The notes under the pieces are model-generated. The model saw only the letters and a list, made by a program, of their open reading frames with translations. It made no database searches and was not told the DNA's origin. From IMG/VR virus record IMGVR_UViG_3300021357_000065, positions 1 to 26,882 of that record: a stretch of DNA of 26,882 bases; one strand, written 5' to 3'. Below are positions 4,464-26,882 of this stretch, piece after piece (position 1 is the first letter of the stretch; the number at the start of each line of letters is the position of its first letter). This DNA comes from a virus. Both the position numbers and the translations under genes were made by a program.

Positions 4464-4464
4464 C

Positions 4465-6588: not shown

Positions 6589-6592
6589 TAAG

Positions 6593-7717: not shown

Positions 7718-7727
7718 GCTTTGAGAA

Positions 7728-9064: not shown

Positions 9065-9083
9065 TTGAAGGATATTAAAATGT

Positions 9084-9112
9084 TTGCATTTCAATCTGCT
9101 TTATGATATTAT
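9084..9112 (+). promoter_or_regulatory. sigma-70-type promoter for the HNH-AP2 gene, leaderless
   Basis: TTGCAT (9084-9089), a 17-bp spacer, then TATTAT (9107-9112). The ATG of the next gene begins 7 bases after the last base of the -10, where transcription normally starts, so the mRNA would have no leader. It lies in one of the few intergenic gaps in the cassette. The spacer and -10 region resemble those at 10336-10364. Confidence 0.6.
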
Positions 9113-9118
9113 TATAAC

Positions 9119-9595
9119 ATGAAGTATATTGATTTAAGCAAACAAGGCAAAAATAAAGGTAAATATCAAACATTAGTAGATGATAAAGACTATGACCGAT
9201 TAAATAAATTTCGGTGGTCTATTACTAATAATGGGTATGCTATTAGAAGATCAAAATATGGATACTTTTTAATGCACAGAGAGATTATTGAGATTCCTAA
9301 TGGTTATGAAGCAGATCACATTAATGGTAATAAATTAGATAACCGTAAACAGAATTTACGAATTGCTACGAGATCACAGAATAATGCTAATCAACGGATA
9401 AATTCATATAATACTTCGGGCTATAAGGGAGTTAGTTGGAATAAGACTCTTAAACTTTGGATGGCATATATCAAAGTTGATGGAAAAAGATATGTTAAAT
9501 GGGCAAAAAATAAGGAAAAAGCGGCAGAAAAATACAATCAAATGGCTAAAGAATATTTCGGAGAATTTGCAAAATTAAATATAATCAAATGGTAA
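9119..9595 (+). CDS. HNH homing endonuclease with C-terminal AP2 domain
   Basis: The central HNH_3-type domain reads LMHREIIEIPNGYEADHING (about 51-70) with ADHINGNKLDNRKQNLR holding the His and Asn catalytic residues. A C-terminal AP2 DNA-binding domain follows (SGYKGVSWNKTLKLWMAYI, 100-118, then a basic helix rich in Lys and Ala). This architecture is common in phage homing endonucleases. It belongs to a different branch from the NUMOD3 proteins in this window. It lies between the DUF5672 and second GT11-like genes, has its own promoter, and its stop overlaps the next ATG by 7 bp (ATGGTAA). Confidence 0.92.
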   Translation: MKYIDLSKQGKNKGKYQTLVDDKDYDRLNKFRWSITNNGYAIRRSKYGYFLMHREIIEIPNGYEADHINGNKLDNRKQNLRIATRSQNNANQRINSYNTSGYKGVSWNKTLKLWMAYIKVDGKRYVKWAKNKEKAAEKYNQMAKEYFGEFAKLNIIKW

Positions 9596-10347
9596 TTGGT
9601 AAAATCAAACCTGGATCAGGAATTGGAGATATGTTGTTTAGTTATATCTGTACTAGAGTCGTTGCTCTTGATAAAGGATACGATTTTGGTTTTATGGGAA
9701 AGGAATATTTTAAAGGAAATTCTTTTATGTCATTAGATTGGGGTAAGCTAGTAGATTTAAAATATGAAGTTGATCCTAAATCAGGAGACTTAATTTTAGA
9801 AGATGAATCTAAAACTTTTATAGTTAATACTCCGTATTATAATCCGGAAATAAATTTTATATCCGATGGTTCAATAATAGATGGTTATGGAGCGCAGGAT
9901 ATACGATACTTTGAACATAGATTGGATGAAGTAAGAGAATGGTTGAAAGTTGAACATTTATTTGTCCATCCAAATATTTGTGTTATCAATTTTCGAGGTG
10001 GAGAATTTACTGTAATACCTGAATTATTTTTACCACAAGAATACTGGGTTAAGGCTATGCAAATAATAAAAGAAAAGCATCCTAAAATAAGATTTGAAGT
10101 GCATACTGATGATCCAAAAACAGCAGAGCGGTTTTTTCCAGGTTTACCGATTATTCAAGACATAGGATTAAATTGGCGGGCGGTGCGATACGCCAAACAT
10201 TTGATTATCTCTAATTCGGCTTTTGCTATTTTACCAGCATTGTTAGGCAATGCGGAAGAAATTATTGCCCCGAAATACTGGAACAGAAGAAATGTAGGGC
10301 GATGGGACTGGCCGATGAATTATTATAAGAAATTCTTGTATATTTAA
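9589..10347 (+). CDS. GT11/fucosyltransferase-like protein, 252 aa
   Basis: The N-terminal segment KPGSGIGDMLFSYICTRVVA is in the position of the GT11 G-x-GNQ(M/L)FQYA motif. CVINFRGGEF (about 140-149) matches the HxRRG region with loss of the His-Arg pair. HTDDPKTAERFFPGLP resembles the FSDD-x2-W segment. ISNSAFAILPALLG near residue 205-218 corresponds to the NSSFSWWAAWL motif. It is therefore a diverged relative of the gene at 3846-4463. It may use a GDP-sugar, but substitutions at the HxRR site make its activity uncertain. No Shine-Dalgarno is visible and the start overlaps the HNH-AP2 stop, so translation is probably coupled. Confidence 0.65.
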   Translation: MVIGKIKPGSGIGDMLFSYICTRVVALDKGYDFGFMGKEYFKGNSFMSLDWGKLVDLKYEVDPKSGDLILEDESKTFIVNTPYYNPEINFISDGSIIDGYGAQDIRYFEHRLDEVREWLKVEHLFVHPNICVINFRGGEFTVIPELFLPQEYWVKAMQIIKEKHPKIRFEVHTDDPKTAERFFPGLPIIQDIGLNWRAVRYAKHLIISNSAFAILPALLGNAEEIIAPKYWNRRNVGRWDWPMNYYKKFLYI

Positions 10348-10364
10348 TACTTTTATGATAAGAT
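10336..10364 (+). promoter_or_regulatory. sigma-70-type promoter for the second NUMOD3 HNH gene, leaderless
   Basis: TTGTAT (10336-10341), a 17-bp spacer, then TAAGAT (10359-10364). The ATG follows after 7 bases (10372). The -35 lies inside the last codons of the preceding GT11-like gene. The stretch CTTTTATGATA is nearly the same as in the promoter at 9084-9112, suggesting common origin. Confidence 0.5.
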
Positions 10365-10371
10365 TAGTTAT

Positions 10372-11058
10372 ATGATAAGAGGCTCAAAGCATAAACCTGA
10401 ATCAATAGCTAAACAAAGAGAAGCGCATAGGAGAAATCCCACTGGTTTTAAATTGGGTCATAAACATTCTGCTAAAACGATTGAAAGAATTAGATTAGCT
10501 ATTACGGGCAAGAAATATGGTAAAAGAAGTGACCAATGGCGGAAAAATATTAGTAAGGGCAAGAAGGGTGTAAAATTTTCTGAAGAACATATTAAAAATC
10601 TTTCTCTATCTCATAAAGGTCAGATAAGTTTTTGGAGAGGTAAAAAACGAGGGTCTATGCCTGAATGGTGGAAGGAAAAGATTAGAACTAGCAATATAGG
10701 AGCACATACAGATTTTACTAATTTTAGGAGAGGGCCACAAAATAATATGTGGAAAGGTGGGGTTACTCCAATAAATGAAAGGATAAGAAAATCTATTGAA
10801 TACAAATTTTGGCGTAAATCTGTTTTGGAACGAGATAATTATACTTGTGTCTTATGTGAAATTAAATCAGAAAAAGGAAAATTTGTTTTATTGCATGCCG
10901 ACCATATTAAACCTTTTGCAAATCATATTCAATTAAGATTTGATATAAATAATGGTAGAACCTTGTGTATTCCATGCCATAAAAAAACTGAAACATATGC
11001 AGGTAAAAATATAAAGCGTCCTAATTATGGAAAAAATAACTCAATATATCGTTCATAG
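10372..11058 (+). CDS. HNH homing endonuclease with several NUMOD3 repeats
   Basis: The long N-terminal region carries about four NUMOD3-type modules (HKPESIAKQREAHRRNP, HSAKTIERIRLAITGKK, FSEEHIKNLSLSHKG, MPEWWKEKIRTSNIG). The WKGG linker is followed by a canonical HNH zinc domain (RDNYTCVLCE, LHADHIKPF, INNGRTLCIPCHKKTETY). It is a longer paralogue of the gene at 4465-4971. The final codons run 32 bp into the start of the following DUF3431-like gene. It has its own leaderless-type promoter. Confidence 0.93.
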   Translation: MIRGSKHKPESIAKQREAHRRNPTGFKLGHKHSAKTIERIRLAITGKKYGKRSDQWRKNISKGKKGVKFSEEHIKNLSLSHKGQISFWRGKKRGSMPEWWKEKIRTSNIGAHTDFTNFRRGPQNNMWKGGVTPINERIRKSIEYKFWRKSVLERDNYTCVLCEIKSEKGKFVLLHADHIKPFANHIQLRFDINNGRTLCIPCHKKTETYAGKNIKRPNYGKNNSIYRS

Positions 11059-11653
11059 ATATAACCATCAAGCCTCTTGGCTCAAAGACTATACAAGCAG
11101 TCCTATTATTTTTGATAGTTCTGCAAGTCCTCTTAAGGGAAGTATTAAAGTTGATAATATTGGAAGTGATATTAATTGGAAACTAAAATTTATTATTGAT
11201 AACTATTCTAATTTGCCTGATGTAGCAATCTTAATAAAATGTAATTTATTTGATTACATAAAACCGCGCGAATTTGAAAAGATTAAAGATAATAAGACCT
11301 TTACTCCAATACTTAGCCAAGAACACCATACATATATGCCAGTATGTTACTATAAAGACGGGATGTATTATGAGATCAATAATTTTTGGTATTTAACGGC
11401 ACATCCGCCAAAAAATGAGCAAGCAGTGGAGGAATTAAGCGATTTGTTAGGATTAAGAAGTCTAAAGTATGTGCCATTTGCTCCTGGCAGTAATTATTTA
11501 TTACCTAAAGCGAATATTTTAAAACATCCTAAAAGTTTATATGAGAAATTAAGAAGTTATTTGGACTGGACTGTTTACCCTGGAGAATGTCAAATAATAG
11601 AAAGAGGATTGTATCTTTTATGGAACATACCCCAATTCCCGCATCAGAACTAG
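11027..11653 (+). CDS. DUF3431-like protein, glycan-cluster associated
   Basis: The protein has the DUF3431 layout. VDNIGSDINWKLKFIIDNYS (about 42-61) then LPDVAILIK parallels the family's NxGRE...HIIxNYDxLPD segment, YVPFAPGSNYLLPKANIL is the middle block, and YPGECQIIERGLYLLWN is the C-terminal ER-W block. The family is found beside glycosyltransferases and is suspected to be one, but no reaction is proven. The ATG at 11027 lies inside the end of the HNH gene with no clear ribosome-binding site. That suggests the endonuclease gene inserted immediately before or into the original 5' end. Confidence 0.68.
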   Translation: MEKITQYIVHRYNHQASWLKDYTSSPIIFDSSASPLKGSIKVDNIGSDINWKLKFIIDNYSNLPDVAILIKCNLFDYIKPREFEKIKDNKTFTPILSQEHHTYMPVCYYKDGMYYEINNFWYLTAHPPKNEQAVEELSDLLGLRSLKYVPFAPGSNYLLPKANILKHPKSLYEKLRSYLDWTVYPGECQIIERGLYLLWNIPQFPHQN

Positions 11654-12174
11654 AGATAATTAAATCCCTAAAAAATATTGAGATTGTATTTGATGTCGGT
11701 TCAAGAACAGACATAGATTATTTTGACATTTTCCCTAAAGCGACTTATCACTTATTTGAGCCAAATCCAGAGTTTTTTGCAGAATTAAAAGCGAAAATTG
11801 GAGATAGAAAAAATGTTTATTTAAATAATTATGGGTTAGGAGATGTGGAAGGAGAGTTTTCCTACAGTAAAAATACCCAAGCCTTCTCTGGTGGGGAAGC
11901 CATTCCTGATGTGAATACTCTAGGAGATATGACATTACCAATTAAAACTTTGGATTGGTATATTAAAGAATACAATATAAAACGAATTGATTTTTTGAAA
12001 ATAGACACTGAAGGGTTTGATTTTAAAGTTCTCCAAGGTGGACAAGAGGCTATTAAAATATGCAGATATATTCAATACGAACATTGGAATGATAGGTGGC
12101 GTTTTCATGAATTGTTAAATAATGACTTTTGGATGAAGTATATTGGGGGTAGAAATGTTTTATGCCAAAGATAG
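11620..12174 (+). CDS. FkbM-family methyltransferase
   Basis: This is a SAM-dependent methyltransferase of the FkbM type, which O-methylates sugars or other polyols. Motif I is FDVGSRTDIDYF, followed by LFEPNPEFFAELKAKI (motif II region), NYGLGDVEGE, and FLKIDTEGFDFKVLQGG, the diagnostic FkbM block. I prefer ATG 11620 with GAGG about 12 bases upstream. An earlier in-frame ATG at 11587 would add 11 residues but has GGAGA only one base before it. Either start overlaps the DUF3431-like gene. It probably caps or decorates a sugar made by the cassette. Confidence 0.87.
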   Translation: MEHTPIPASELEIIKSLKNIEIVFDVGSRTDIDYFDIFPKATYHLFEPNPEFFAELKAKIGDRKNVYLNNYGLGDVEGEFSYSKNTQAFSGGEAIPDVNTLGDMTLPIKTLDWYIKEYNIKRIDFLKIDTEGFDFKVLQGGQEAIKICRYIQYEHWNDRWRFHELLNNDFWMKYIGGRNVLCQR

Positions 12175-12177
12175 GCG

Positions 12178-12206
12178 TTGACTTATAATGGCGAAAGAGT
12201 TATAAT
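12178..12206 (+). promoter_or_regulatory. near-consensus sigma-70 promoter for the HNH gene at 12213
   Basis: TTGACT (12178-12183), an exact 17-bp spacer and a perfect TATAAT (12201-12206). The ATG begins at 12213, the expected +1, so the transcript should be leaderless. The nine bases TTATAATGG occur twice 17 bases apart (12183-12191 and 12200-12208). This is the strongest promoter match in the window and starts 4 bases after the FkbM stop. Confidence 0.78.
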
Positions 12207-12212
12207 GGAGAT

Positions 12213-12665
12213 ATGCCATTATATAAAAAATGTTTAGTTTGTAATAAAGAATTTTTGACATATCCTTATGATGAAAAAGTAAGAAAATATTGTAGTTTTC
12301 AATGTTACTGGAAAGCTAAAAAAGGTTCTGTGGGGTATTGGATTGGTAAGAATAGAAGTAAAGAAACAATTGAAAAAATAAGACAAGCTAAATTAGGGAA
12401 GCCGAGTAAGCGAAAAGGTAAGCCTAGTCCGAAAACAGCTAATGAGAATCATCCATTTTGGAAAGGCGATAAGGTTAGTTATTCTGGTTTGCATTATTGG
12501 ATTGTTAGAAAACGAGGTAAGCCAACTACTTGTGAACATTGTGGCAAAATTAACTTAAAGGGGAAATTTATCCATTGGGCTAATAAAAGTCATAAGTATA
12601 AACGGGATTTAGAAGATTGGTTAAGGCTTTGTGCGGAATGCCACAAAAAATATGACAAACTCTAA
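12213..12665 (+). CDS. HNH-type homing endonuclease, HWANK subgroup
   Basis: An N-terminal zinc knuckle (KKCLVCNKEF then YCSFQCYWK) precedes a NUMOD3-like basic repeat (KETIEKIRQAKLGK) and a WKG linker. The nuclease module follows: CEHCG, IHWANKSHKYKRDLEDWLRL, CAECHKKYD. The C-terminal module matches the genes at 1-441 and 21724-22161, and the N-terminal zinc knuckle matches the latter. The central Asn of the HNH triad seems replaced by Trp/Asp in DWLRLC. The stop lies 14 bp past the preferred start of the following GT17-like gene. Confidence 0.9.
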   Translation: MPLYKKCLVCNKEFLTYPYDEKVRKYCSFQCYWKAKKGSVGYWIGKNRSKETIEKIRQAKLGKPSKRKGKPSPKTANENHPFWKGDKVSYSGLHYWIVRKRGKPTTCEHCGKINLKGKFIHWANKSHKYKRDLEDWLRLCAECHKKYDKL

Positions 12666-13419
12666 AATTTACGATTGCATTACATTTAACGGCGAATATG
12701 ATTTATTTGAAATTCGCTATAATATCTTGAAGAATTATGTGGACAAGTTTATTGTTGTTGAATTTGACAAGACGTTCAGCGGCAAGCCTAAAATCGCTTT
12801 ATTCGCTCAAAAATGGCCTAAGATAAGGTATTACTTCATAATCGAAGATATCTGGTCAGAATACAAAGATTTAGCAGTCAGGAGTCCGAATACGGAATAC
12901 GGCAAAGGAGCGAAACATTGGATCAGGGAGTTTTGTCAAAAAGAGGCGATTAAAGGCTGCTTAACGGATTTACAAGATGATGATATAATATTGATAGGTG
13001 ATTGTGATGAGATCCCTAACCCGAAACTTTCTTTTAATGGCTTACCAGTCAAGTTAAAATTAAAAGTTTATTCTTATTATCTAAACAATCGCTCAAATGA
13101 ACAATTTTGGGGAACCTTAGTAGGATTTTATAAAGATATTAAAAATGAAATTCTTAATCATTTAAGGAGCAGGACAAAAAGAACAGAAGAAGAACAAGGC
13201 TGGCATTTTACGTCGCTGAAGGATGGATTAAGACGCAAGCTAGAAGATAGTTATACGCAAGAATCTTATGCCACGCCACAAGTAATGGACAATTTAGACA
13301 AGAACATAGCGGAGAACAAAGATTTTCTTGGTAGAGATTTTAAGTACTGGACGGACGAAAGCGATTGGCCGCAATACTTAAAAGACAACAGAGAGAAATA
13401 TAAATATTTATTAAAATAA
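12652..13419 (+). CDS. family GT17-like glycosyltransferase
   Basis: GT17 contains beta-1,4-N-acetylglucosaminyltransferases (GnT-III type) and many bacterial relatives. Signatures: IYDCITFNGEYDLFEIRYNI near the N terminus, FIVVEFDKTFSGKPK, DDDIILIGDCDEIPNP as the DXD-containing core, and GWHFTSL. Length (about 255 aa) fits the bacterial members and there is no membrane anchor. I chose ATG 12652 because the protein then starts MTNSKIYDCITFNGE, the family's usual beginning. An in-frame ATG at 12631 adds seven residues and lies deeper in the HNH gene. It is the last glycan gene before the packaging genes. Confidence 0.86.
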   Translation: MTNSKIYDCITFNGEYDLFEIRYNILKNYVDKFIVVEFDKTFSGKPKIALFAQKWPKIRYYFIIEDIWSEYKDLAVRSPNTEYGKGAKHWIREFCQKEAIKGCLTDLQDDDIILIGDCDEIPNPKLSFNGLPVKLKLKVYSYYLNNRSNEQFWGTLVGFYKDIKNEILNHLRSRTKRTEEEQGWHFTSLKDGLRRKLEDSYTQESYATPQVMDNLDKNIAENKDFLGRDFKYWTDESDWPQYLKDNREKYKYLLK

Positions 13420-13420
13420 T

Positions 13421-13723
13421 ATGGAATCTAGTATTGTAAATTCAATTCAAGCGGAAAATCCAAATAAATTGGTAGAGAATTGGAGAAATCCTGATGGAAC
13501 ATTCAAACCAGGACATCCCGATCTTGGAGCAGGGCGACCAAAAGGACAAACACTTAAAGAATATTGGCGGGAACGCTTTAAGAATATGACTGAGGAGGAA
13601 AAGTTAGAATTTACCAAAAAAGTGGGTAATGAAAGTATTTGGAAAATGGCTGAAGGTATGCCGCCTCAAGAGATAAAAGGCGATATAGAAGTTTTAAGTA
13701 AAGTAATTAAATTAGATGAATGA
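13421..13723 (+). CDS. putative terminase small subunit (DUF5681-like N terminus)
   Basis: The 100-aa protein contains NPDGTFKPGHPDLGAGRPKG (23-42), the conserved start seen in DUF5681 proteins that precede large terminase genes. A basic helical segment follows, and the tail is acidic and ends eight bases inside the large terminase gene. Small terminases recognise phage DNA and recruit TerL. The assignment rests mainly on position and the GAGRPKG motif. The protein is short and lacks a clear helix-turn-helix, so an accessory packaging factor is possible. Confidence 0.65.
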   Translation: MESSIVNSIQAENPNKLVENWRNPDGTFKPGHPDLGAGRPKGQTLKEYWRERFKNMTEEEKLEFTKKVGNESIWKMAEGMPPQEIKGDIEVLSKVIKLDE

Positions 13724-15095
13724 TGAAATCAGCTTTACAGAGCTTAGCAATTTCTTTCCTAAACAGAATGAAGCTAAGTTAGCTTCTAAAAGATTTAAGT
13801 TTACGTTATTTGGCGGCAGTGTAGGTTCAGGTAAATCACGCTGGCTTAGATGGATGTGCGTTTATTGGTTAATGGATTATTATGCAAGATATAAAACCAA
13901 AGGAATACGAGCCGGTTTGTTTTGCGAGGATTACCCATCTCTTAATGATCGGCACCTTACCAAAATTAAGTTCGAGTTCCCTGATTGGTTGGGAAGATAT
14001 AACGAACAAAAGCATGAATTCACTTTGGCCCCCGAATATGGATCAGGCATTATTGCTTTCCGAAACTTGGATGACCCCCCAAAATACTTATCAGTCGAAT
14101 TTGCCGTCATTGCTATTGATGAAATCAACCGAAATCCAAAAACTACATTCGACATGCTCCGTTCTCGGCATCGCTGGCCAGGAATAAAAGATGTAAAATT
14201 CTTAGCAGGTTGCAACCCTTTGGGCGAAGCGTGGGTCAAGAATATGTGGGTCAAACGGATGTTTGGTCCTGACGAGAAGGAACAGTATGAGTTTGTTTAT
14301 GTACCGGCTTTGCCTACAGATAATCCGTACCTTCCTCAAGAATACTATAAGGGTTTAGAATCCTTACCTGAAAACCAGCGCAAAGCTTATTTAGAGGGGA
14401 ACTGGGATGCGTTTGACGAGGGCATGGATGAGAAAGGATATATACGATTAGTTACTGACCGTGAATTACAAAGCTTTTATACTACTCAAGGCGAACACTC
14501 AGGGTACAAAATATTGGGTGTTGATCCAGCGGCAGGAGGAGATAATTCTGCGATTGTACTCAAAAGCGGAAATTTACAAGAGGTTCTTTTCAATCAAAAA
14601 CTCCAAAATACCATGGATTTAGTAGGAGTGATTATGGAAAAGTATCGAGACTATAGATGCGATTTTATTGTTATAGACAAAACAGGCGTTGGGCAGGGAG
14701 TGTTTGATCGTTTGAAAGATTTAGACTATCCAGTTAGGGGCGTGGCGTTTGGCGAAAAGAGCGAAGATGATCAATTTGTTAATTTAAAAGCTGAGTGGCA
14801 TTGGAGAGAGCGTAAATGGTTATTGAGTGGTGGCCGATTAGTTCACAATATAGCTTGGAACGAGTTTGAGTATGTTAAGTACAAGAATAAAGATGGTAAG
14901 ATTATTATTCAGCCGAAAGAAGATTTGTTTAGAGAAGGAATTGGTAGCCCTAATTGTGTTGACGCGGCTGTGTTGACAATGGTTATAAACGATCAAACTA
15001 TTAGAACAGCTAAAATAATTAAAATGAATCAAGGACGACCATTTGCAGATAAGATGGTCGAAATTTGGCATGGCGGAAAAGAAATACCAGACTAA
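13716..15095 (+). CDS. terL: terminase large subunit
   Basis: The DNA-packaging motor ATPase and nuclease. The Walker A loop is GGSVGSGKS (33-41), Walker B is FAVIAIDE (129-136), and the coupling motif is FLAGCNP (162-168). The C-terminal RNase-H-like nuclease has LGVDPAAGGDN (Asp270), FIVIDKTGVGQGV (Asp321) and PNCVDAAV (Asp416), the expected three acidic residues. At 459 aa it is a normal length. The start overlaps the small-terminase stop by 8 bp. The gene is undisturbed by insertions. Confidence 0.96.
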   Translation: MNDEISFTELSNFFPKQNEAKLASKRFKFTLFGGSVGSGKSRWLRWMCVYWLMDYYARYKTKGIRAGLFCEDYPSLNDRHLTKIKFEFPDWLGRYNEQKHEFTLAPEYGSGIIAFRNLDDPPKYLSVEFAVIAIDEINRNPKTTFDMLRSRHRWPGIKDVKFLAGCNPLGEAWVKNMWVKRMFGPDEKEQYEFVYVPALPTDNPYLPQEYYKGLESLPENQRKAYLEGNWDAFDEGMDEKGYIRLVTDRELQSFYTTQGEHSGYKILGVDPAAGGDNSAIVLKSGNLQEVLFNQKLQNTMDLVGVIMEKYRDYRCDFIVIDKTGVGQGVFDRLKDLDYPVRGVAFGEKSEDDQFVNLKAEWHWRERKWLLSGGRLVHNIAWNEFEYVKYKNKDGKIIIQPKEDLFREGIGSPNCVDAAVLTMVINDQTIRTAKIIKMNQGRPFADKMVEIWHGGKEIPD

Positions 15096-15486: not shown

Positions 15487-15916
15487 AGGTATATATCAGA
15501 GAACTAAAACTTTAGTTATATCAAAGCAATTAAATTATCAAAGAAAACATAAACAATTAGGATTATGTCGAAATTGTTCTAATCCAGTTTTTAATCCAGT
15601 AACTACAGTATATTGTGAATATCATAGAAAAGTTCACCTCGTTAGAAATAAAACAATATATGCTCTTCACAAAGGAATAATAAAACAAGAATCTTGTGAA
15701 GTATGCAATGATCCAAACACTGAATCGCATCATTTAGATTATTCTAAACATATGCTAATAAAATGGTTGTGTCGTAAGCACCACAAAGGTCAACACCCAA
15801 ATCATAATAGGAATTATCCTCGAATGGTTGACTTGTTAAAAACAAATTTGCCATACTTAAAGTACAATGGCAAACGAACAAAAACTACCCAAGCACTTAA
15901 AATACATTCAAGATAG
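15479..15916 (+). CDS. HNH-type endonuclease inserted before the portal gene
   Basis: Two zinc-binding blocks are visible. The first is CRNCSNP with YCEYHRKVH. The second is the nuclease-like SCEVCNDPNTESHHLDYSKH followed by WLCRKHHKGQH (His-His-x-Asp, then C-x2-H-H), the layout of small phage HNH proteins. It lacks NUMOD3 repeats and belongs to neither of the paralogous groups here. I chose ATG 15479, which overlaps the preceding stop by 8 bp. An ATG-less extension to 15434 is unlikely. The last 50 bp run into the portal gene in another frame, so its C-terminal tail (GKRTKTTQALKIHSR) is read from portal DNA. Confidence 0.8.
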   Translation: MPKGIYQRTKTLVISKQLNYQRKHKQLGLCRNCSNPVFNPVTTVYCEYHRKVHLVRNKTIYALHKGIIKQESCEVCNDPNTESHHLDYSKHMLIKWLCRKHHKGQHPNHNRNYPRMVDLLKTNLPYLKYNGKRTKTTQALKIHSR

Positions 15917-17849
15917 TTATGAAGAGTCTCGCAACTTTCTTGAAACTTGGAAACGGCGTAAGGTCAAACAACTAGTTCTGCTTAATAATCTTCAGCGAGG
16001 TGATCAAAATATAGCGTCCACTCTTTTGGTGACGCTTTTTAATCGTGTATTATCCAGTCTTTATGACGATAAGATACAAGTTAAATTCCTGCCATCCCAA
16101 GGTATTACCCAAGAACAACTTAATTCTTACAATGTGCTTGCCCAATCTGATTACTTGGAAATGGCTAAGAATAAGTTGGATTATGACTGGTGTTGGGATG
16201 CTTTGTTTTTCAATCGCGGTTATATGGAAACCTTGCGGTTTAACAAGAAACGCAAGATTATGGAGCCGCACGTTATTAACCCCTTGGCCTTTGGTTACGA
16301 CCCCTACTTTGAGAATGTCCAAGATTGGCGATATTACTGGAAATGGATTACTAAGTCAAAAGTTGAAATAAACAGATTGATTAAAAACGGCACGATTACA
16401 GGCATTACAAAGCCAGAGGAAATTCCATCAGGTGTGGATGAGTATTTATGGAATTATAAAGTCTTGAGGGATCAGGCCAAGAAAGCGGTAGAACCTTCGG
16501 CTGATTCAATGGGCGGGGATATTTACCAGATTCTTGAGTTCTATGGCTATAACAATGATGGTGAGAAATGCGTACATTGGTTGGATCGGGACATGACTAA
16601 GGTTTTATGGGAAGATACGTTGGATTTGGATGATTTAGTGTTTGAGAACCCATCAAGCGACAAGGAAGAAGAAAAGGGCTCTAAGTGGCCGGTTGCCACT
16701 AAGGAAGTATTTAGAGAACCTCACGCCTCAATTAATTTCGGTATTGCTGATTTACTTGAGGATAAACACCGGGCTAAGAGTGTGCTTTTGAACCTAGCTT
16801 TTATCGCGGCCAAAGATAAAGCTAATCCGATTTATATGTATAATCCTGATAAAGTTAAGGACATTACTCAATTATTCTCCCGACAGATTAACCAGCACAT
16901 TCCTGTTGAGGATATTGAAGGAGCGGTGGCCCCACTTAACACACAAGAGCCGATGTCGCCTGAACTAATTCAGTTTATTTCTATGCTCCAACAAGAAGCT
17001 AATGCTCCCATAGGAACAGGTGTCGTTTTACAACCACAAAGGACCAAGACTTCTAATACGGCCACAGAAGCAGCCATTGACCAGCAACTTAATGACATGG
17101 CTCAAAGTTTACAAAGCAAAATCATGCAATTCGGAGAATCGGAATTTTGGTCTCATTGGTTTCATCGTTACGCTAAATATGGGCCGGAATTAAAAGAAAA
17201 GATGGCCAATATCATAGGAGTGAAAGGAGTTACTTCGCAGACAATCAATTTAAAAGACTTTAATACTGACTATCCTCCTGGTGTTCTTGTGTACTCAGCC
17301 AAAGAAGCGGAATACAAAGAGTTGGTGTTGAGACGGGATTTGATGCAACTTTATCCAGCTTTGATGCAAAGTATGAACCCTGACGGTTTAAGGAATTTTA
17401 ACAAGCATGTATTCTTCCCTAAATTCCTGCAAGATCCCAGTTTGATTGATGTCATGTTGCCTAAAACCATTGATGAGATTAAGGCAGAGACAGAAAACGA
17501 GCAGTTGGTTAACAATGAATGGGTGGAAGCGTTGCCGACTGATAACCACACTACCCATATTTATACTCATCAAATGCTTCAGCCTAAAACTTGGGCGGTT
17601 TTGTTTCACTTGGCTAGGCACGAACAATTATTAGCCCAACAAAAAGCGATGGAACAGCAAATGATGCAAATGCAAATGCAGAATCAGGTGCTAAAACAAG
17701 GACAAACCCAAGTGCTTGACAATAGTAGGGGACAAATTGGTAAAATTAATGTAGGAACAGAAAAGAGATCGCCGATGGCGGCAACCACGCCTTTGAAAAC
17801 GGAATTTCAGCCACGAACTACGATGAGGCAAGCACCATCTCAAGTGTAA
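15867..17849 (+). CDS. portal protein
   Basis: The portal forms the dodecameric ring through which DNA is packaged and to which the tail attaches. At 660 aa the size suits podovirus-type portals. Recognisable regions include a helical N terminus (HLKYIQDSYEESRNFLETWK), a mid-domain (EPHVINPLAFGYDPYFENV) and the late segment APIGTGVVLQPQRTKTSNTA leading into the crown helices. The C-terminal tail is rich in Met and Gln (MEQQMMQMQMQNQ). Position after terL and before scaffold and capsid is decisive. The start lies inside the HNH gene with no Shine-Dalgarno, so translation may depend on the upstream ribosome. Confidence 0.85.
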   Translation: MANEQKLPKHLKYIQDSYEESRNFLETWKRRKVKQLVLLNNLQRGDQNIASTLLVTLFNRVLSSLYDDKIQVKFLPSQGITQEQLNSYNVLAQSDYLEMAKNKLDYDWCWDALFFNRGYMETLRFNKKRKIMEPHVINPLAFGYDPYFENVQDWRYYWKWITKSKVEINRLIKNGTITGITKPEEIPSGVDEYLWNYKVLRDQAKKAVEPSADSMGGDIYQILEFYGYNNDGEKCVHWLDRDMTKVLWEDTLDLDDLVFENPSSDKEEEKGSKWPVATKEVFREPHASINFGIADLLEDKHRAKSVLLNLAFIAAKDKANPIYMYNPDKVKDITQLFSRQINQHIPVEDIEGAVAPLNTQEPMSPELIQFISMLQQEANAPIGTGVVLQPQRTKTSNTATEAAIDQQLNDMAQSLQSKIMQFGESEFWSHWFHRYAKYGPELKEKMANIIGVKGVTSQTINLKDFNTDYPPGVLVYSAKEAEYKELVLRRDLMQLYPALMQSMNPDGLRNFNKHVFFPKFLQDPSLIDVMLPKTIDEIKAETENEQLVNNEWVEALPTDNHTTHIYTHQMLQPKTWAVLFHLARHEQLLAQQKAMEQQMMQMQMQNQVLKQGQTQVLDNSRGQIGKINVGTEKRSPMAATTPLKTEFQPRTTMRQAPSQV

Positions 17850-20547: not shown

Positions 20548-21633
20548 ATGCCAGTAACAGTACGTGGATCAGGTTGGGGTGGCGTTTCATACGACCAGTC
20601 CGCGCTTTTGGTTTCATATATCAATGACGAAATCAAGGTGCTCGAACCTGATCTTAAATATGCCCGCTTGGGCGTAAAACGGGATGCTCCAAAGGGGTAT
20701 GACCGTATTCTCTTTCCGCAGACAAACCAACTTCCTGTTCGGATTAACATTCCAGTTCCTAGCGTTGGTTCAAGTACCAGCGTTGTGACTGGCGGTTCTG
20801 TGTGGGGTGCGGGTGCGTCTATTCAGGGAGGAGCAGCAGCTACGGCTCCTGGATTTCCAGTGTCCAGCACTGAAGGTGTGGCTGCAATTCAGGAAGGTAC
20901 TAATCCTACCGCAGTGACTTGGGGTGCGACATCATATAGTTCGACAGGAACCCAATATGGTATTTTGGTGACAGTTACCGATCTTTTGGTTCATAACTCT
21001 GCTATTGAAGTGGTTGATGCTGCATCAGGGCAAGTTAGGAACGCTTTAGCTAGGCTTGTTGATACGGTAATTCAAGGTGTTGTTAACGCCGGAACTAATG
21101 GTGTGACTTATTCTGGTGGTAGAACGGCTCGCGCGGATGTAGCCGCAGGCGATACGATCACTCAGAGTAATATGACCAGAGCTGTTAAGATGCTTCGTTC
21201 ATCTAACGCTGCTGGTCTTCGTCCGTTTGAGGGCGCTTATTATGTCGCAGTCATTCATCCACAGGTTATGGGCGATCTAATGGATTCAACCGCTACCGGC
21301 GGTTGGATAGATGCAGGCCGTTATACTTCGGTTGATGATATTCGTGAAGGCAAGATGAAAGATTATCGTGGAGTGCGATATCTTGAGTCTGCTTGGCAGA
21401 ATTACTTCAACTCAACGGTTGCGGTTTTTCCGACAACTGTCTTGGGCGAACAATCGTTTGGGTGGGGTTTCTTTCAAACACCAACGCCTATCTTAGTGAC
21501 GACTCCAGATTCTAATAATCCCCTAAACCTTTACACCTCGATTGGTGGCAAGGTTAGTTTGGGTGTTACAAGGTTTGAAGACACGTTGGGGACACAAAGA
21601 ATTCGTCGGATTGAATCAGCTATATCGAACTAG
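20548..21633 (+). CDS. major capsid protein, N4-gp56 family
   Basis: The protein has features of N4-gp56-type HK97-fold capsid proteins. These are an EGTNPTAVTWGAT segment (116-128), VTVTDLLVHNSAIEVV (141-156), a long helix (GQVRNALARLVDTVIQGVVN, 161-180), YYVAVIHPQVMGDL (231-244), and a C-terminal GVRYLESAW (275-283) block. 361 aa is a normal size. An Ala/Gly-rich insertion (about 82-106) may be a surface loop. The HNH gene downstream separates it from its connector-like partner. Confidence 0.88.
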   Translation: MPVTVRGSGWGGVSYDQSALLVSYINDEIKVLEPDLKYARLGVKRDAPKGYDRILFPQTNQLPVRINIPVPSVGSSTSVVTGGSVWGAGASIQGGAAATAPGFPVSSTEGVAAIQEGTNPTAVTWGATSYSSTGTQYGILVTVTDLLVHNSAIEVVDAASGQVRNALARLVDTVIQGVVNAGTNGVTYSGGRTARADVAAGDTITQSNMTRAVKMLRSSNAAGLRPFEGAYYVAVIHPQVMGDLMDSTATGGWIDAGRYTSVDDIREGKMKDYRGVRYLESAWQNYFNSTVAVFPTTVLGEQSFGWGFFQTPTPILVTTPDSNNPLNLYTSIGGKVSLGVTRFEDTLGTQRIRRIESAISN

Positions 21634-21684: not shown

Positions 21685-21708
21685 ATGCGGCACTTCATTA
21701 AGCCGCAT
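21685..21708 (+). other. 7-bp perfect hairpin between capsid and HNH genes
   Basis: ATGCGGC (21685-21691) and GCCGCAT (21702-21708) flank a 10-base loop. There is no downstream T-tract, so it is not a standard terminator. It would fold at the very 5' end of a transcript from the promoter at 21645-21673 and hides an alternative in-frame ATG (21685). It could protect the mRNA 5' end or restrict start choice. Confidence 0.5.
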
Positions 21709-21723
21709 CCCCTAGGACGTAAT

Positions 21724-22161
21724 ATGTTAAATAAAAAATGTGTAATATGCGGTAAGGAATTTGAGAAAGATAAACGTATAAGTATGCGAATTTGGGAAAC
21801 TCAAACAAGGTTTTGTTCCCAAAAATGTGTAAGTAAAGATAAACAAATTCTTGTAAATAGAAAAAAGGGGATTGTTGAATCCTTTAAAGAAGGACGAAAA
21901 GCTTGGAATAAAGGAATACCAAGCCCTAAGGGTGAATTAAATCCAAGTTGGAAAGGTGAAAAAGCTGGATATGCTGCAAAGCATAAATGGATAGTTACTG
22001 TACTTGGTAATCCTGAAACTTGTAAGTATTGTGATAAAACTGGATTGAAACGACAACAAATTCACTGGGCTAATAAGAATCATAAATACAGGAGAAATAT
22101 TAAAGATTGGATGAGATTATGCCGTGAATGTCATCTAATCTATGATAGGAAATTTAAATAA
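21724..22161 (+). CDS. HNH-type homing endonuclease, HWANK subgroup
   Basis: Starting at ATG 21724 (AGGA six bases upstream), the protein reads MLNKKCVICGKEF with a second knuckle RFCSQKC, a short basic NUMOD3-like region (AWNKGIPSPKGELNPSWKG), then the nuclease module CKYCD, IHWANKNHKYRR, DWMRLCRECH. It is collinear with the gene at 12213-12665, which begins at the equivalent residue. An upstream ATG at 21685 would add 13 residues unlike the paralogue. It lies between the capsid and connector-like genes and its stop directly abuts the next ATG. Confidence 0.9.
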   Translation: MLNKKCVICGKEFEKDKRISMRIWETQTRFCSQKCVSKDKQILVNRKKGIVESFKEGRKAWNKGIPSPKGELNPSWKGEKAGYAAKHKWIVTVLGNPETCKYCDKTGLKRQQIHWANKNHKYRRNIKDWMRLCRECHLIYDRKFK

Positions 22162-22845
22162 ATGGTTTTGAGTACTGTCCTCAACTTTGCCCGCGCCCAA
22201 GCCCAAACCGATTCCAACGGTCTGACTAATGCCAATGGGATTATCTTTGCTAATGAGGCTTTAGAGGATTTTCACCGCCGATTAGTGACTGCGGGTGTGG
22301 ATGCTTCCCAGCTTCAGGAATCTTATCGGGACGGCACGGTGGATCAAGGAACATATCTCTATCCAACAGATATGTTATTTTTGAAAGCTATTGCTTTGAA
22401 TTACGTCAATACTATAATTCAAGATTACAAAACGGCCTTGCAAGTGGATGTGTCTAATCTTCCGGATCAATCATTTGGCTGGCTAAGAACTAATGCTGGC
22501 ACTGCCAGTCCACAATTTGATGATCGAGGAGATTGGTTTGAGATATTCCCGACTCCGACTTCTGCGCACAACGTTACAAGATTGATGCGGATTTTTTATT
22601 ATCTCCAGCCGACTCAATACGCGGTCGTGACGGATACTGTGGCTTATCCTGAAGATTTAGATCAGGCGATTTTAGGCTGGCGGATTGCCGCTTCTTATCT
22701 TTACTCATTAGGGAAAATGTTAGAAGGTAATGCGTTTAATTTTAAATACGAGCAAAGAGTCAAGGATTATATCGCGACACTGGCTCGTGGCGTTCAACAA
22801 CCCTTACAGGCAGTTCCGCTTCAGATTGATGGGTTCGATTTCTAA
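22162..22845 (+). CDS. putative head-tail connector (adaptor) protein
   Basis: The 227-aa, largely helical protein sits immediately after the capsid region, where podoviruses and siphoviruses encode adaptor proteins that join portal to tail. Segments such as GIIFANEALEDFHRRLVTAG, LYPTDMLFLKAIALNY and YPEDLDQAILGWRIAASYLY resemble adaptor-type helices, and FEIFPTPTSAHNVTRLMRIF the beta insertion. No enzyme motif is seen. It begins on the base after the HNH stop, with AGGA 12 bases upstream inside the HNH gene. The function is inferred from position and layout. Confidence 0.65.
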   Translation: MVLSTVLNFARAQAQTDSNGLTNANGIIFANEALEDFHRRLVTAGVDASQLQESYRDGTVDQGTYLYPTDMLFLKAIALNYVNTIIQDYKTALQVDVSNLPDQSFGWLRTNAGTASPQFDDRGDWFEIFPTPTSAHNVTRLMRIFYYLQPTQYAVVTDTVAYPEDLDQAILGWRIAASYLYSLGKMLEGNAFNFKYEQRVKDYIATLARGVQQPLQAVPLQIDGFDF

Positions 22846-22848
22846 TTT

Positions 22849-23136
22849 ATGCCATGGACAAATATCAACAAACCAGCAACTTCTTCGGTGGCGGCGATCA
22901 GAGGACAATATTATGGCTTTGGAGCATTGACTTACGCTGGCAGTGAAGTAATAGGAGCGAATGTTGGATATACAAATATTTCCAAGCCGACAGGAGCAAG
23001 TTATACCAATGTAGCTAAGCCAACAGGAGGCAGACTTATCCAAATCGGGATGATTACAGGACTGCTCATTCCCTTGACTTATTCCAGAATCAGGTCAATC
23101 GGCAGTCCATGGACGAATATTCTTAAACCAACATAA
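22849..23136 (+). CDS. small repeat protein with TN-x-x-KP motifs, 95 aa
   Basis: The motif (W/Y)TN-x-x-KP occurs four times: PWTNINKPA at the N terminus, GYTNISKPTG and SYTNVAKPTG in the middle, and PWTNILKPT at the extreme C terminus. Between them lie a Gly/Tyr-rich stretch and a hydrophobic turn (IGMITGLLIPLTY). The protein thus begins and ends with the same unit. Such motifs are seen in phage appendage proteins. A role in tail or fibre attachment is likely but unproven. It starts 4 bases after the connector stop. Confidence 0.7.
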   Translation: MPWTNINKPATSSVAAIRGQYYGFGALTYAGSEVIGANVGYTNISKPTGASYTNVAKPTGGRLIQIGMITGLLIPLTYSRIRSIGSPWTNILKPT

Positions 23137-24012
23137 ATGGCCTACAGATTTTTTGACGCAGATTCATCAATACTAACTGCCGCTTCCAGTGTGGTGGCAG
23201 GGGATCACCGGCCAATCGTACAGATTGGTTCGGTACTTTTGGCTATTCCTACGACCGTTAGCGGCTCGCCTTCCATTTCGGGAGCGGTAACTGTTATAGG
23301 CAACCCCAGTATTTCAGGGCAAGTAGGTGCTAGTATTATAGGCACTGTGCCTGTGGTTCAGTCAGGGACTGTTATTACTTCTATTGTTAGTACTGTACCA
23401 TCCAGTGTTATAGTCGGCGCTTCAATATTTGGTCTTGCACCTGTAAACGTTACGAATACTAATTTGAATGTTGGTGGTTCAGTAGTTGGATTTCAGGGTG
23501 GTGCTTGGACTGCTTCAGTGGTTGGTAATGTAGGATTAACTGGAACTATCATTACTTCTTTGGTTAGCACGATTCCTTCTAGTGTCATAGTTGGTGCTTC
23601 AATATTTGGTTTAGCTCCAGTGAATGTGACTAATACAGTAACTATCAATCCTGTATCAGTTAGTGGCACAGTGGGAGCTTCGGTTATTGGCACAGTTCCG
23701 ATGGTACAATCAGGCACTCAAATAACCTCCGTGATAGGAGCAATTTCTCCAACAGGTATAGTTACCTCCGTAGCAACTCAAGCTTCAACTTTAAATTTGC
23801 TCGCGTCTAATTCAGGACGCAGAGGGGCAACATTAAGCAACTATTCTGGTACTTCAGTTTTGGTTAAACTAGGTTTGATGTCGGGAGTTACTGACCATAC
23901 CGTAGTTATGCAGGACACCGACTATTACGAAGTTCCGTTTAATTATTCAGGTGTGATACAACACTTTTCTTCTTCGGTTGCGGGATTTATTAGAATAACA
24001 GAGGTAACATAG
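23137..24012 (+). CDS. repetitive tail/appendage protein, 291 aa
   Basis: The N terminus is followed by Val/Ser/Gly/Ile-rich repeats (about residues 43-200) that look like a beta-helical or fibrous shaft. Two long units share the core VSTVPSSVIVGASIFGLAPV, and further partial units read GASVIGTVPMVQSGT. The C-terminal domain (about 215-291) is a separate small beta sandwich ending YYEVPFNYSGVIQHFSSSVA, a form common at the ends of phage surface proteins. No chaperone or enzyme motif is seen. The repeat block is shared with the gene at 25177-26307. A fibre or spike role is likely. Confidence 0.75.
   Translation: MAYRFFDADSSILTAASSVVAGDHRPIVQIGSVLLAIPTTVSGSPSISGAVTVIGNPSISGQVGASIIGTVPVVQSGTVITSIVSTVPSSVIVGASIFGLAPVNVTNTNLNVGGSVVGFQGGAWTASVVGNVGLTGTIITSLVSTIPSSVIVGASIFGLAPVNVTNTVTINPVSVSGTVGASVIGTVPMVQSGTQITSVIGAISPTGIVTSVATQASTLNLLASNSGRRGATLSNYSGTSVLVKLGLMSGVTDHTVVMQDTDYYEVPFNYSGVIQHFSSSVAGFIRITEVT
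23320..23730 (+). repeat. coding repeats of a GASIIGTVPVVQSGT-type module
   Basis: Unit 1 spans residues 62-108, unit 2 residues 132-167, and a partial unit 3 residues 176-198 of the tail protein. The protein repeats are nearly identical (for example VPSSVIVGASIFGLAPVNV in both long units; I/V changes only before it), while the DNA differs mainly at third codon positions. Confidence 0.8.
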
Positions 24013-24777
24013 ATGCCACTATCATCTAAAATTGCTAACGCACTTAAATCCGCGACAACTGTCGTAAATGTTTCTCGTGCCACTGCGCCTTCTGCCGACC
24101 AAATTTTAACCGCGACAAGTGCAACTGCGGCGACTTGGCAGGCTGCGGGGGGAGCAACAAGAACTGTTTATTCTGTAAGTACAACATTTGAAGCAACTGG
24201 TCGTTTTAGTCTTGCTGTTACAAGTGCTGGAACGAATACATTTGGTGCAACGGGCTTAGCCCAAGAAACATCTGCGACAGGAACAAGCGGCACTCGTGGC
24301 TTATGGCTTCATATTACAGCAGGAGAATCAGTAGGGGGTAGTCCATTATGGTCTACACATTTTGAAATAACGCTTCTTGGTAGTGATGTAAATACTTTTT
24401 GTGGAATGGGCTTAGTGGGCAATACGGGTGGTACAATAAGTTACACTTTTGGTCATTATGGTTTTAAGGTAACCAGAGCTGCTTCAGGCACTGCGAGTCT
24501 TTTTGGCACCCAAGCGGATGGTACGACAGAAACCGCAACATCTGCTTTGCGGACAGTGATTGAAACTGATGCACTTGATGTAATAGTAAAAGTCAACGGT
24601 ACAACCAGTGCAGATTATTATAGTCGTATAAATAGTGGTGCATTATCTGCTGCAACCAATTTGACAGCAACTATACCTGCAGCGACAATTGATGGAAGGT
24701 CAGCATTTTCTATTAGTAATGTGGCTACAGCCACTAATAGTATATTTATTTACTATGGAGCTTCTTACGAAAGATAA
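24013..24777 (+). CDS. tail/appendage protein, beta-rich, 254 aa
   Basis: The N terminus contains SADQILTATSATAATWQAAG, a short segment that recurs in phage fibre and appendage proteins just before the distal domain. The remaining ~200 residues alternate hydrophobic and small polar residues with many Thr and Gly (THFEITLLGSDVNTF, TISYTFGHYGFKV, ALDVIVKVNGT), as in a jelly-roll or lectin-like domain. It could bind a receptor. It abuts the repeat protein upstream. No catalytic motif is visible. Confidence 0.7.
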   Translation: MPLSSKIANALKSATTVVNVSRATAPSADQILTATSATAATWQAAGGATRTVYSVSTTFEATGRFSLAVTSAGTNTFGATGLAQETSATGTSGTRGLWLHITAGESVGGSPLWSTHFEITLLGSDVNTFCGMGLVGNTGGTISYTFGHYGFKVTRAASGTASLFGTQADGTTETATSALRTVIETDALDVIVKVNGTTSADYYSRINSGALSAATNLTATIPAATIDGRSAFSISNVATATNSIFIYYGASYER

Positions 24778-24782
24778 AATCT

Positions 24783-25145
24783 ATGCCACAGGTTAAAATA
24801 TCCCAAATTACGTTCATGTGTCCCACAGGATTAGGAAATCCTAACGCTCCTTGCCGTTTTCATCGAGCAAGCGATAATCTTCCGCCTGACAATATGTGCC
24901 CGACTTGCAAGAAAGTGTTAGTAAAATCCACTGACCCGAATGATAAAATCACCATGACAGTTATGGGTGAAGAAGATATTGATACGGAAATCGAACAGAT
25001 AAAAGAAAGAAAACAGAAAGGGGAAAGCAGAAAAGACGACCCTAATGTCTCAAACCCTGCCAAAGAAAACGTCTACCGAACCAAAAGAAAAGCAGACATC
25101 GCAAAAGCAATAATTGAAGCTAGGAAATTATCCGACTCTGCATAA
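24783..25145 (+). CDS. zinc-knuckle hypothetical protein, 120 aa
   Basis: The N-terminal half has CPTGLGNPNAPCRFH and NMCPTCKKVL, giving a CxxC pair plus another Cys pair and a His, a plausible zinc site. The C-terminal half is highly charged and helical (IDTEIEQIKERKQKGESRK, KADIAKAIIEARKL). It lies inside the tail gene run, which is unusual for a zinc protein. It may be a chaperone or assembly factor, or an intruder. No family is recognised. Confidence 0.65.
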   Translation: MPQVKISQITFMCPTGLGNPNAPCRFHRASDNLPPDNMCPTCKKVLVKSTDPNDKITMTVMGEEDIDTEIEQIKERKQKGESRKDDPNVSNPAKENVYRTKRKADIAKAIIEARKLSDSA

Positions 25146-25176
25146 AGCTATGTCGGACAAGGAATATAAATAATTT

Positions 25177-26307
25177 ATGCCCACAGGACAAATAATTGTC
25201 AGTTCTGGTATAGGAGTAAATGTCGGAACTCATACAATCACTGAAGACGCTTTAACTAAGCATCTTCAGAGAGTAGCATTGACCACAGCAGATGGTTCAG
25301 TTTTTGGCACAACAACAGTGCCAATAGGAGTTTCTATTATTGGGGCTATTACAGCCACTCTTAGTGGCACTCCTTCGATTTCTGGGCAGGTCGGAGCGTC
25401 AATTATCGGGTCGGTGCCTGTAACTTTTGCCGCGAGTGCCAATCAATCGGTATCAGGAACAGTTGGAGCTTCAATTATTGGAACCATATCTGCGGGAACT
25501 CAATATGCCGAAAATGCCGTTATTGCTTCGGTAACAGGAACAGCTGTAATTTTCCGTTCTAATGTTTCCACTTCCACTTTAAGTGTGGTTGAGTCAACAA
25601 ATCCATTGCCAATTAGAGGTTCAATATCAGGAACCGTGGGATCATCAGTAATTGGAACTGTACCAGTGGTACAAAGTGGAACAGTCATATCATCTTTAGT
25701 CAGTACGGTTCCTTCTAGTGTATTGGTAGGAGCTTCGATTATAGGTACTGTGCCAGTGGTGCAGAGTGGAACTGTACTTACTTCAGTGTCGGGAACAGTA
25801 GTGGTTCAATCTATTGTTGGTACTTATGCGGAAGATGCGGCGCATACGACAGGAGCTTCGGGTTTATTTGTTTTAGGTGTCCGCAACGATGCGATGCCGT
25901 CCATTACTTCAGCAAACTTAGATTATTCACCTATTGCAGTTGGCCCTGTCGGTGAAGTTTTGACTGCTAACGCGCCTTTGACTAGATGGGTGCAAGGGAC
26001 AGCATCTATGTTGACAGGCACGCCAGTAAATGGTGGTTCTGTAACGGTAATTGCCGCTCAAGGTTCAAGCATTTTTACGTATATAACTTCAGGACAGGTT
26101 GCAAATGCCAGCGCGAATAATGTTTACTTAACTTTCTATGGGGCAACAAGTTCAATAGTAGGTTATTTGCCAGTACCCGCTAATAGCGGGGCATTGCCTA
26201 TTTTACCTAACGCTTGGAAGACCAACGCTAATGCGGCGTTTGCGGCATCGGTCAGTGGAGTAGCAAGTGTATTTCTCTCATTTCAAGGATTTATAAGTGA
26301 AACATAA
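25177..26307 (+). CDS. repetitive tail/appendage protein, 376 aa
   Basis: A different N terminus leads into the same Val/Ser/Gly/Ile repeats as the gene at 23137 (about residues 68-103 and 150-208, for example SGTVGSSVIGTVPVVQSGTV). A middle domain (TYAEDAAHTTGASGLFVLGV, about 216-235, then DYSPIAVGPVGEVL) matches a segment widespread in environmental phage structural proteins. The C-terminal domain (about 270-376, ending VASVFLSFQGFISET) is unrelated to that of the 291-aa protein. This is a mosaic fibre-like design with a shared shaft and a different tip. Confidence 0.75.
   Translation: MPTGQIIVSSGIGVNVGTHTITEDALTKHLQRVALTTADGSVFGTTTVPIGVSIIGAITATLSGTPSISGQVGASIIGSVPVTFAASANQSVSGTVGASIIGTISAGTQYAENAVIASVTGTAVIFRSNVSTSTLSVVESTNPLPIRGSISGTVGSSVIGTVPVVQSGTVISSLVSTVPSSVLVGASIIGTVPVVQSGTVLTSVSGTVVVQSIVGTYAEDAAHTTGASGLFVLGVRNDAMPSITSANLDYSPIAVGPVGEVLTANAPLTRWVQGTASMLTGTPVNGGSVTVIAAQGSSIFTYITSGQVANASANNVYLTFYGATSSIVGYLPVPANSGALPILPNAWKTNANAAFAASVSGVASVFLSFQGFISET
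25378..25788 (+). repeat. second block of GTVPVVQSGT-type coding repeats
   Basis: At least four copies of the SG-x-VGASIIG core occur, including a tandem pair (residues 150-204) separated by VSTVPSSVLVG. The copy VPVVQSGTV has the same nine residues as in the gene at 23137, yet eight of nine codons differ between the two genes. Confidence 0.8.
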
Positions 26308-26882
26308 ATGCCTAATTTAAATGCTCAAGTATTAGTAGTTGCAGGGGGGGGAGGCGGGAGAGGAAATTCTACTTTGGCGGGTGGTGGTGGTGCAGGAGGT
26401 CACCGTTATGATGCGGCTTTTGCTATTACTGTTCCGGGTACTATTACAGTAACAGTTGGTAATGGTGGCGATGGTGGTAATCCAGGAACTAGTGGCGGTA
26501 ATTCAGTTTTTAGTACAATCACATCAACTGGTGGGGGATTTGGAGAAAGTAATGCGGGTGCGGGTGCCAATGGTGGATCAGGAGGAGGTGGTAACCCGGG
26601 TGGTTCTGGAACTGCAGGGCAAGGAAATGCAGGTGGTAACATTAATTCTAATGCTGGCGGAGGAGGCGGAGGTGGCGGTACTGCTGGTGCTAACGGGGTA
26701 ACGAATCAAGGTGGTAATGGTGGTGATGGAGTAGCAAATTCAATAACAGGGACATCTGTTACTCGCGCAGGTGGAGGGGGAGGTGCAGTAGCTAGTGGAT
26801 TGACTCCTGGGTCAGGTGGATCAGGAGGAGGAGGTGCGGGGAGTGCGGGAAATAATAATGCGGTAAATGGCACCGTTAATAC
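26308..26882 (+). CDS. glycine-rich tail fibre/adhesin-like protein, 3' end beyond window
   Basis: The frame starts at ATG 26308 on the base after the previous stop and stays open to the window end (191 complete codons). MPNLNAQVLVVAGGGGGRG begins a protein dominated by Gly, Asn, Ala and Ser. A short strand region (FAITVPGTITVTVGNGGDGG) is followed by long glycine runs. Glycine-rich phage adhesins use polyglycine helices at the fibre tip, and this gene's place at the end of the fibre run agrees. A run of eight G at 26344-26351 lies near the start. The distal domain is outside the window. Confidence 0.75.
   Translation, partial: MPNLNAQVLVVAGGGGGRGNSTLAGGGGAGGHRYDAAFAITVPGTITVTVGNGGDGGNPGTSGGNSVFSTITSTGGGFGESNAGAGANGGSGGGGNPGGSGTAGQGNAGGNINSNAGGGGGGGGTAGANGVTNQGGNGGDGVANSITGTSVTRAGGGGGAVASGLTPGSGGSGGGGAGSAGNNNAVNGTVN
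26344..26351 (+). repeat. homopolymer of eight G near the 5' end of the glycine-rich gene
   Basis: Eight consecutive G residues encode part of the AGGGGG segment at residues 12-17. Poly-G tracts of this length are prone to slippage, and a one-base change would put the adhesin-like gene out of frame. It could also be a site of sequencing error, though the frame is intact here. Confidence 0.7.

Follow-up and report, generated by a model that had tools for sequence, protein, structure and literature searches.

The 26,882-base virus record IMG/VR IMGVR_UViG_3300021357_000065, analysed over its whole length and called the window here, carries two fibre-like genes, A and B, in which short peptide words recur. 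In A the repetitive shaft lies between distinct N- and C-terminal domains. The parts of the two genes are as follows (pLDDT, predicted local distance difference test).

23137..24012, + strand: gene A, a fibre-like protein of 291 amino acids with a short N-terminal domain, a repeat shaft and a C-terminal domain
23323..23460, + strand: A shaft copy 1, residues 63-108, VGASIIGTVPVVQSGTVITSIVSTVPSSVIVGASIFGLAPVNVTNT
23530..23637, + strand: A shaft copy 2, residues 132-167, of which 147-167 are identical to 88-108
23656..23742, + strand: A shaft copy 3, residues 174-202, degenerate, SVSGTVGASVIGTVPMVQSGTQITSVIGA
23770..24009, + strand: A C-terminal domain, approximately residues 212-291
25177..26307, + strand: gene B, a fibre-like protein of 376 amino acids with a repeat shaft and a predicted C-terminal jelly-roll domain
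25372..25410, + strand: B word PSISGQVGASIIG, residues 66-78, common with A residues 57-69
25447..25485, + strand: B word SVSGTVGASIIGT, residues 91-103
25621..25749, + strand: B full block, residues 149-191, with VPVVQSGTV at 162 and VSTVPSSV at 175
25726..25806, + strand: B second VPVVQSGTV copy, residues 184-210, without the VSTVPSSV half
25972..26304, + strand: B C-terminal domain, residues 266-376, a predicted jelly roll with pLDDT of about 80-92 over most of its length and with fold matches

Shaft words and their codons

The initial annotation of this DNA pointed to a block, GTVPVVQSGTV-x-(T/S)S-(I/L)VSTVPSSV, recurring in both genes, and to eight of nine codons differing between them for VPVVQSGTV. 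Both observations hold: each gene has one full block, at residues 69-91 in A and 160-182 in B, with degenerate or partial copies at A132, A187 and B192, and VPVVQSGTV differs at 8 of 9 codons between A71 and B162. This is the larger of two A-B comparisons, the other (A71 against B192) giving 5/9, and the copies inside B (B162 against B192) also differ at 5/9, as had been stated. With synonymous codons shuffled, 8 or more differences in 9 arise with a probability of 0.16 for A71-B162 and of 0.30 when the larger A-B count is taken, so that the figure is unremarkable in itself. The recurrence of the protein words, by comparison, is far above chance: the best 20-residue self-match scores 20/20 in A, where residue-shuffled proteins reach no more than 8, and 16/20 in B, where they reach no more than 9. 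The strongest repeat in A was absent from that annotation: PSSVIVGASIFGLAPVNVTNT, at residues 88 and 147, is identical at 21/21 residues and different at 13/21 codons.

We compared all common exact peptides of at least 6 residues in A and B, taking the expectation from the genes' own codon usage. Between A and B, 57/81 codons differ against 56.6 expected (shuffles 56.6 +- 3.9); within A the count is 13/21 against 13.0, and within B 25/40 against 26.6. The synonymous change that had been called near-maximal is random rather than near-maximal, since the pooled observed count equals the expected one in every class.

The same holds across the family. Relatives were gathered by IMG/VR scans with A, B, pieces of the shaft, an alignment of the B C-terminus and a capsid alignment, giving 28 shaft-type genes from 27 viruses, or 32 genes after the addition of L060-L063; the closest 26 form the core. 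Outside that core, and kept in the 32-gene counts, are L035, L036 and L060-L063, among which the L061 open reading frame has no clear shaft. We dropped L050 (coding DNA equal to L049), L037 (protein equal to L036), L015 and L016 (1 and 3 base differences from L014 over the compared stretch) and loci whose contigs were in the set already. The 84 within-gene repeat pairs from the 32 shaft-type genes differ at 931/1461 codons against 930.8 expected, a ratio of 1.000; under stricter detection, 37 pairs differ at 638/984 against 636.0 (ratio 1.003, bootstrap 0.94-1.06). Word pairs between viruses, a control in which intragenic recombination cannot act, differ at 4446/6754 codons against 4676.6 expected in 320 pairs (ratio 0.951, bootstrap 0.92-0.98), and this ratio is flat over three bands of amino-acid identity (0.943, 0.955 and 0.951).

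For the 24 within-gene pairs of at least 18 residues the proportion of synonymous differences (pS) is 0.747, compared with 0.751 +- 0.018 after shuffling, and the proportion of non-synonymous differences (pN) is 0.079; the Nei-Gojobori method scores switches between the serine codon boxes as replacements, so that pN exceeds 0 even for identical peptides. Long repeats behave likewise: 101/107 residues are identical and 70/101 codons different in L035, 58/60 and 40/58 in L013, and 38/39 and 24/37 in L025. Among within-gene repeats of at least 18 residues the lowest ratios are 0.75 (L035) and 0.79 and 0.83 (L018), the core minimum being the 0.79 of L018; only the distant gene L063 goes lower, at 0.59-0.88. 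No excess of synonymous difference appeared by codon shuffles, by the longest exact DNA repeat, by repeated 12-mers or by shuffled pS. The codons of the copies behave as independent draws, completely saturated at synonymous sites, with neither an excess nor a residue of similarity. Single-copy structural orthologues of the window and its relatives are also near synonymous saturation, most ratios being 0.8-1.1.

A vocabulary common to the family

About two dozen related IMG/VR viruses use the same words in varying order and number, for instance ITSLVSTVPSSVIVGASIFG, ANQSVSGTVGASVIG and QGTNPW. In A, 78% of 20-residue windows are matched at 14/20 or better in at least one of 26 genes from other viruses. 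Exact runs of 21-55 residues are present; the 18 open reading frames of that comparison include two that are not shafts (L006 12838-14094 and L010 9204-10094). Repeats of at least 18 amino acids and at least 85% identity number 13 in the 26 core genes (0.50 per gene) and 164 in 324 between-virus gene pairs (0.51 per pair), the latter count taking in matches of the end domains; such equality is expected if the words are a common stock. Contigs that are close copies of each other (L014/L015/L016 and L049/L050) have the same repeat number. A longer unit, NLH-VVDNFPADAD-AQGSTTSGQLG...DPLSL, was also seen in L035, L060 and L062, three otherwise different shaft-type genes, with its codons saturated; it may be a small domain.

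Recent identical repeats in relatives had been named as evidence that would speak against the initial interpretation, and near-identical DNA duplicates were found in no core-family shaft, the distant shaft-type L063 having partly diverged repeats with 26 identical nucleotides (nt). Exact direct DNA repeats of at least 22 bases occur at ten distinct places in all loci examined, only the L063 one in a shaft-type gene. Others lie in, or at the position of, a small gene beside the fibres (L068, 26 nt; L088, 28 nt; L095, 31 nt, at the corresponding position), and the longest, 121 bases in L069, begins at the contig's first base and is apparently an effect of the contig end. Young repeats, if short, are thus tolerated and assembled; long exact ones may still vanish in short-read assembly.

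Beyond IMG/VR, tblastn searches of 50,697 phage records with gene B, L018, L035, L036 and a shaft-only piece of L035 gave no match, probably in part because of low-complexity masking. Among isolate-phage records, gene A matched three Manatee Spring records, L017 matched four Microbacterium phage records, and the C-terminal piece of B matched one Manatee Spring record and two of Microbacterium phage Burro; the surroundings of TinyTimothy gp36 and Burro gp42 were inspected as well. Neither L017 nor the capsid alignment found a match in bacterial and archaeal genomes.

Fibre ends and neighbouring genes

The relative L014 has both ends in common with A (70% identity over the alignment) and a different shaft; the longest run identical to L014, at 40 residues, lies in gene A. 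In other fibre-like genes of the clade the N-terminus is retained and the C-terminus exchanged. In this the genes resemble the modular tail and side fibres of known phages; what sets them apart is that the shaft consists of literal words, retained from virus to virus at synonymous saturation.

About 71% of the residues of both proteins are S, V, G, T, I or A. Triple-stranded beta-helix and beta-spiral shafts have short repeats in which V, I, T, S and G abound, and the A and B shaft repeats are similar. T4 gp5 (PMC4576200) is an example of such a shaft; for A and B this fold is possible, and pLDDT is mostly below 45 in single-chain shaft models; the model of A (mean 30.8) was not used. The C-terminal domain of B is better modelled. 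Its best VIA match is 4ind (Z 10.4, root mean square deviation 2.7, 102 aligned) and its best Foldseek match 7dou (E 4.9e-5). The closest resemblance of the predicted fold is to viral turret and cement domains, such as the trimeric cement, decoration and turret jelly rolls of KHP40, Pam1, STIV and HFTV1; unlike these, the B domain caps a long repeat region at the C-terminus, and a PDB search at E<=1 gave no sequence match for it. Unrelated beta sandwiches match it in numbers at Z of about 8, so no function is read from the fold. A protein of phage Burro is among the similar predicted viral structures, and the B C-terminus has a sequence match to Burro gp42 as well.

A tailed-phage structural module fills the right half of the window, with these genes upstream of A and B:

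13716-15095: large terminase
15867-17849: SU10-type portal
20548-21633: major capsid
22162-22845: weak tail-protein match

Downstream of the weak match come five genes, putatively for surface structures or of unknown type, A and B being two of them, and then a glycine-rich protein truncated by the contig end. Neither A nor B has a profile match at E<=0.01 in PHROG, Pfam or NCBIfam. The initial annotation called both tail genes, and they may be; their position fits tail or head attachment alike, and the predicted tip fold of B also resembles head cement proteins.

Several neighbouring genes deserve mention. Between the capsid and the next structural gene, at 21685-22161, is a 158-amino-acid protein rich in cysteine and histidine, HNH-like by eye and with no Pfam match at E 0.001. 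The small gene at 22849-23136 encodes spaced (Y/W)TN-I-x-KP(T/S) motifs; it has relatives at the same position in many contigs, some of them (L088, L068) with the short exact DNA repeats noted above. The glycine-rich protein at 26308-26880, which runs off the contig, matches Pfam Gly_rich_2 and PHROG 2295 and is possibly an adhesin. Upstream of the structural module, 2111-13419 holds clustered genes for sugar-nucleotide enzymes and glycosyltransferases (GT6 family, GDP-mannose 4,6-dehydratase/epimerase, DegT aminotransferase, a second epimerase and GT17 family), possibly a viral glycan pathway.

Origin of the shaft words

We consider the best explanation, at a probability of about 0.72, to be a vocabulary of shaft modules that is old and spans the family, kept by strong purifying selection and shuffled slowly. 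A and B would be virion surface fibres, with a variable N-terminal attachment end, an exchangeable C-terminal domain and, between them, a shaft of conserved words (VSGTVGASIIG, VPVVQSGTV, ITSLVSTVPSSVIVGASIFG, PSISG and others). The vocabulary, common to a whole clade of uncultured viruses, would be old, each word being held near fixation by purifying selection, probably because it makes up one exact turn of a trimeric shaft of beta structure. Whether they sit in one gene, in two genes or in different viruses, the copies would have split long enough ago for their synonymous codons to reach equilibrium, with a slow turnover presumably proceeding by loss and swapping of modules and not by recent duplication. 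Since words in different viruses are nearly as codon-random as those within a gene, no process specific to within-gene repeats is needed. Of the earlier interpretation, selection to keep the shaft is supported by the low pN at saturated pS and by the recurrence of words across viruses at synonymous saturation, and, of the two readings it offered, very old duplication is preferable; the idea that codons were actively scrambled to avoid recombination between repeats is not supported.

That idea supposes selection for synonymous differences beyond drift, which we find scarcely credible. The repeats of L006 do differ at 79/106 codons against 68.8 +- 5.1 in shuffles (p 0.03, one of 14 repeat-bearing genes among 19 run, uncorrected for multiple tests), but L018 deviates equally in the opposite direction (50/92 against 59.6, p 0.03), the pooled ratio and pS do not exceed random expectation, the between-virus pairs give nearly the same ratio, and none of the 19 genes has a maximal exact DNA repeat significantly below the length seen in shuffles. 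Convergence, by which similar words arose independently in a shaft using few residue types, is very improbable as well: the narrow composition of both proteins would favour it, but residue shuffles reach at most 11/20 in any gene where up to 20/20 is observed, and the exact runs are long. The residue shuffles rule it out for long words, and only some 6-residue matches could be so explained.

The old vocabulary has several observations to contend with, however. Repeats of at least 30 amino acids are commoner within genes (7 in 26) than between viruses (33 in 324 pairs), and the flanks of words are more alike within genes (47% against 35%, the pairs not being independent), yet codons within genes show no greater similarity (1.00-1.02 against 0.95); the long repeats and closer context suggest that some copies are probably younger than the virus splits. 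Old age alone, moreover, fails to predict that no copy in core-family shafts is young in codons, if duplication is continuous. Calibration is likewise not wholly favourable. Pairs of moderate divergence were located through the capsid, and the fibre-like genes of most lack a word shaft; the only such shaft pair, L098/L108, has pN 0.086 at pS 0.49 over 80 residues, partly beyond the shaft, against 0.079 at 0.75 for within-gene repeats, a comparison biased because the repeats were picked for high identity. Other fibre-like orthologues give a ratio of non-synonymous to synonymous divergence (dN/dS, omega) of 0.12-0.31, inflated by tip swaps because collinear alignment raises dN, and capsids 0.05-0.15. 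A 541-amino-acid gene is almost identical in L118 and L121 (dS 0.01) where the capsids have dS 1.27, and the capsids of L121 and L122 are near-identical (dS 0.09) with the genes beside them diverged; this patchiness suggests recent recombination between viruses.

A recombination filter would account for part of this. Near-identical duplicates would be deleted quickly by homologous recombination, so that only copies diverged at silent sites survive, the selection acting on the survival of copies and not on particular codons. Core shafts have no near-identical DNA duplicate although relatives vary in repeat number, the young repeats in the neighbouring small gene indicate that short ones assemble, and within-gene copies are closer in protein context without being closer in codons. 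On the other hand, between-virus words are nearly as codon-random without any filter, short-read assembly may break on long exact repeats and give the same absence, and partly diverged repeats do exist in L018 (0.79) and L063. We regard the filter as unlikely. The related proposition, that shaft copies are younger than their codons suggest and that duplicates survive only if silent sites diverge fast enough to escape recombinational deletion, we think rather improbable. If it were true, the shafts of this clade would have repeats proof against recombination, as natural equivalents of synthetic codon-scrambled genes, and would run counter to the published rule that within-protein repeats diverge faster than orthologues.

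That rule was reported by Persi et al. 2016 (PMC5120217), in whose main text the term "virus" has no match. As described there, within-protein repeats were compared, as here, by Nei-Gojobori pN and pS, and pairs with pN or pS of at least 0.75, about one third of comparisons, were discarded. Unlike those repeats, the phage shaft repeats have low pN at saturated pS, and many of their pairs would fall in the discarded class. Searches of open-licence papers turned up no report of codon-randomised phage shaft repeats.

The pattern is real, well conserved and codon-random, with an ordinary mechanism most likely behind it, and its points of note are a word stock spanning the family and the lack of young copies. 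With young repeats absent, the shafts provide an easy test for the purging of direct repeats from coding sequence by phage genomes. The fibre shafts of a large clade of uncultured phages are built from a conserved peptide vocabulary whose DNA holds no memory of duplication, and as a result homologous recombination inside the shaft should be rare, so that fibre diversity must come by other routes.

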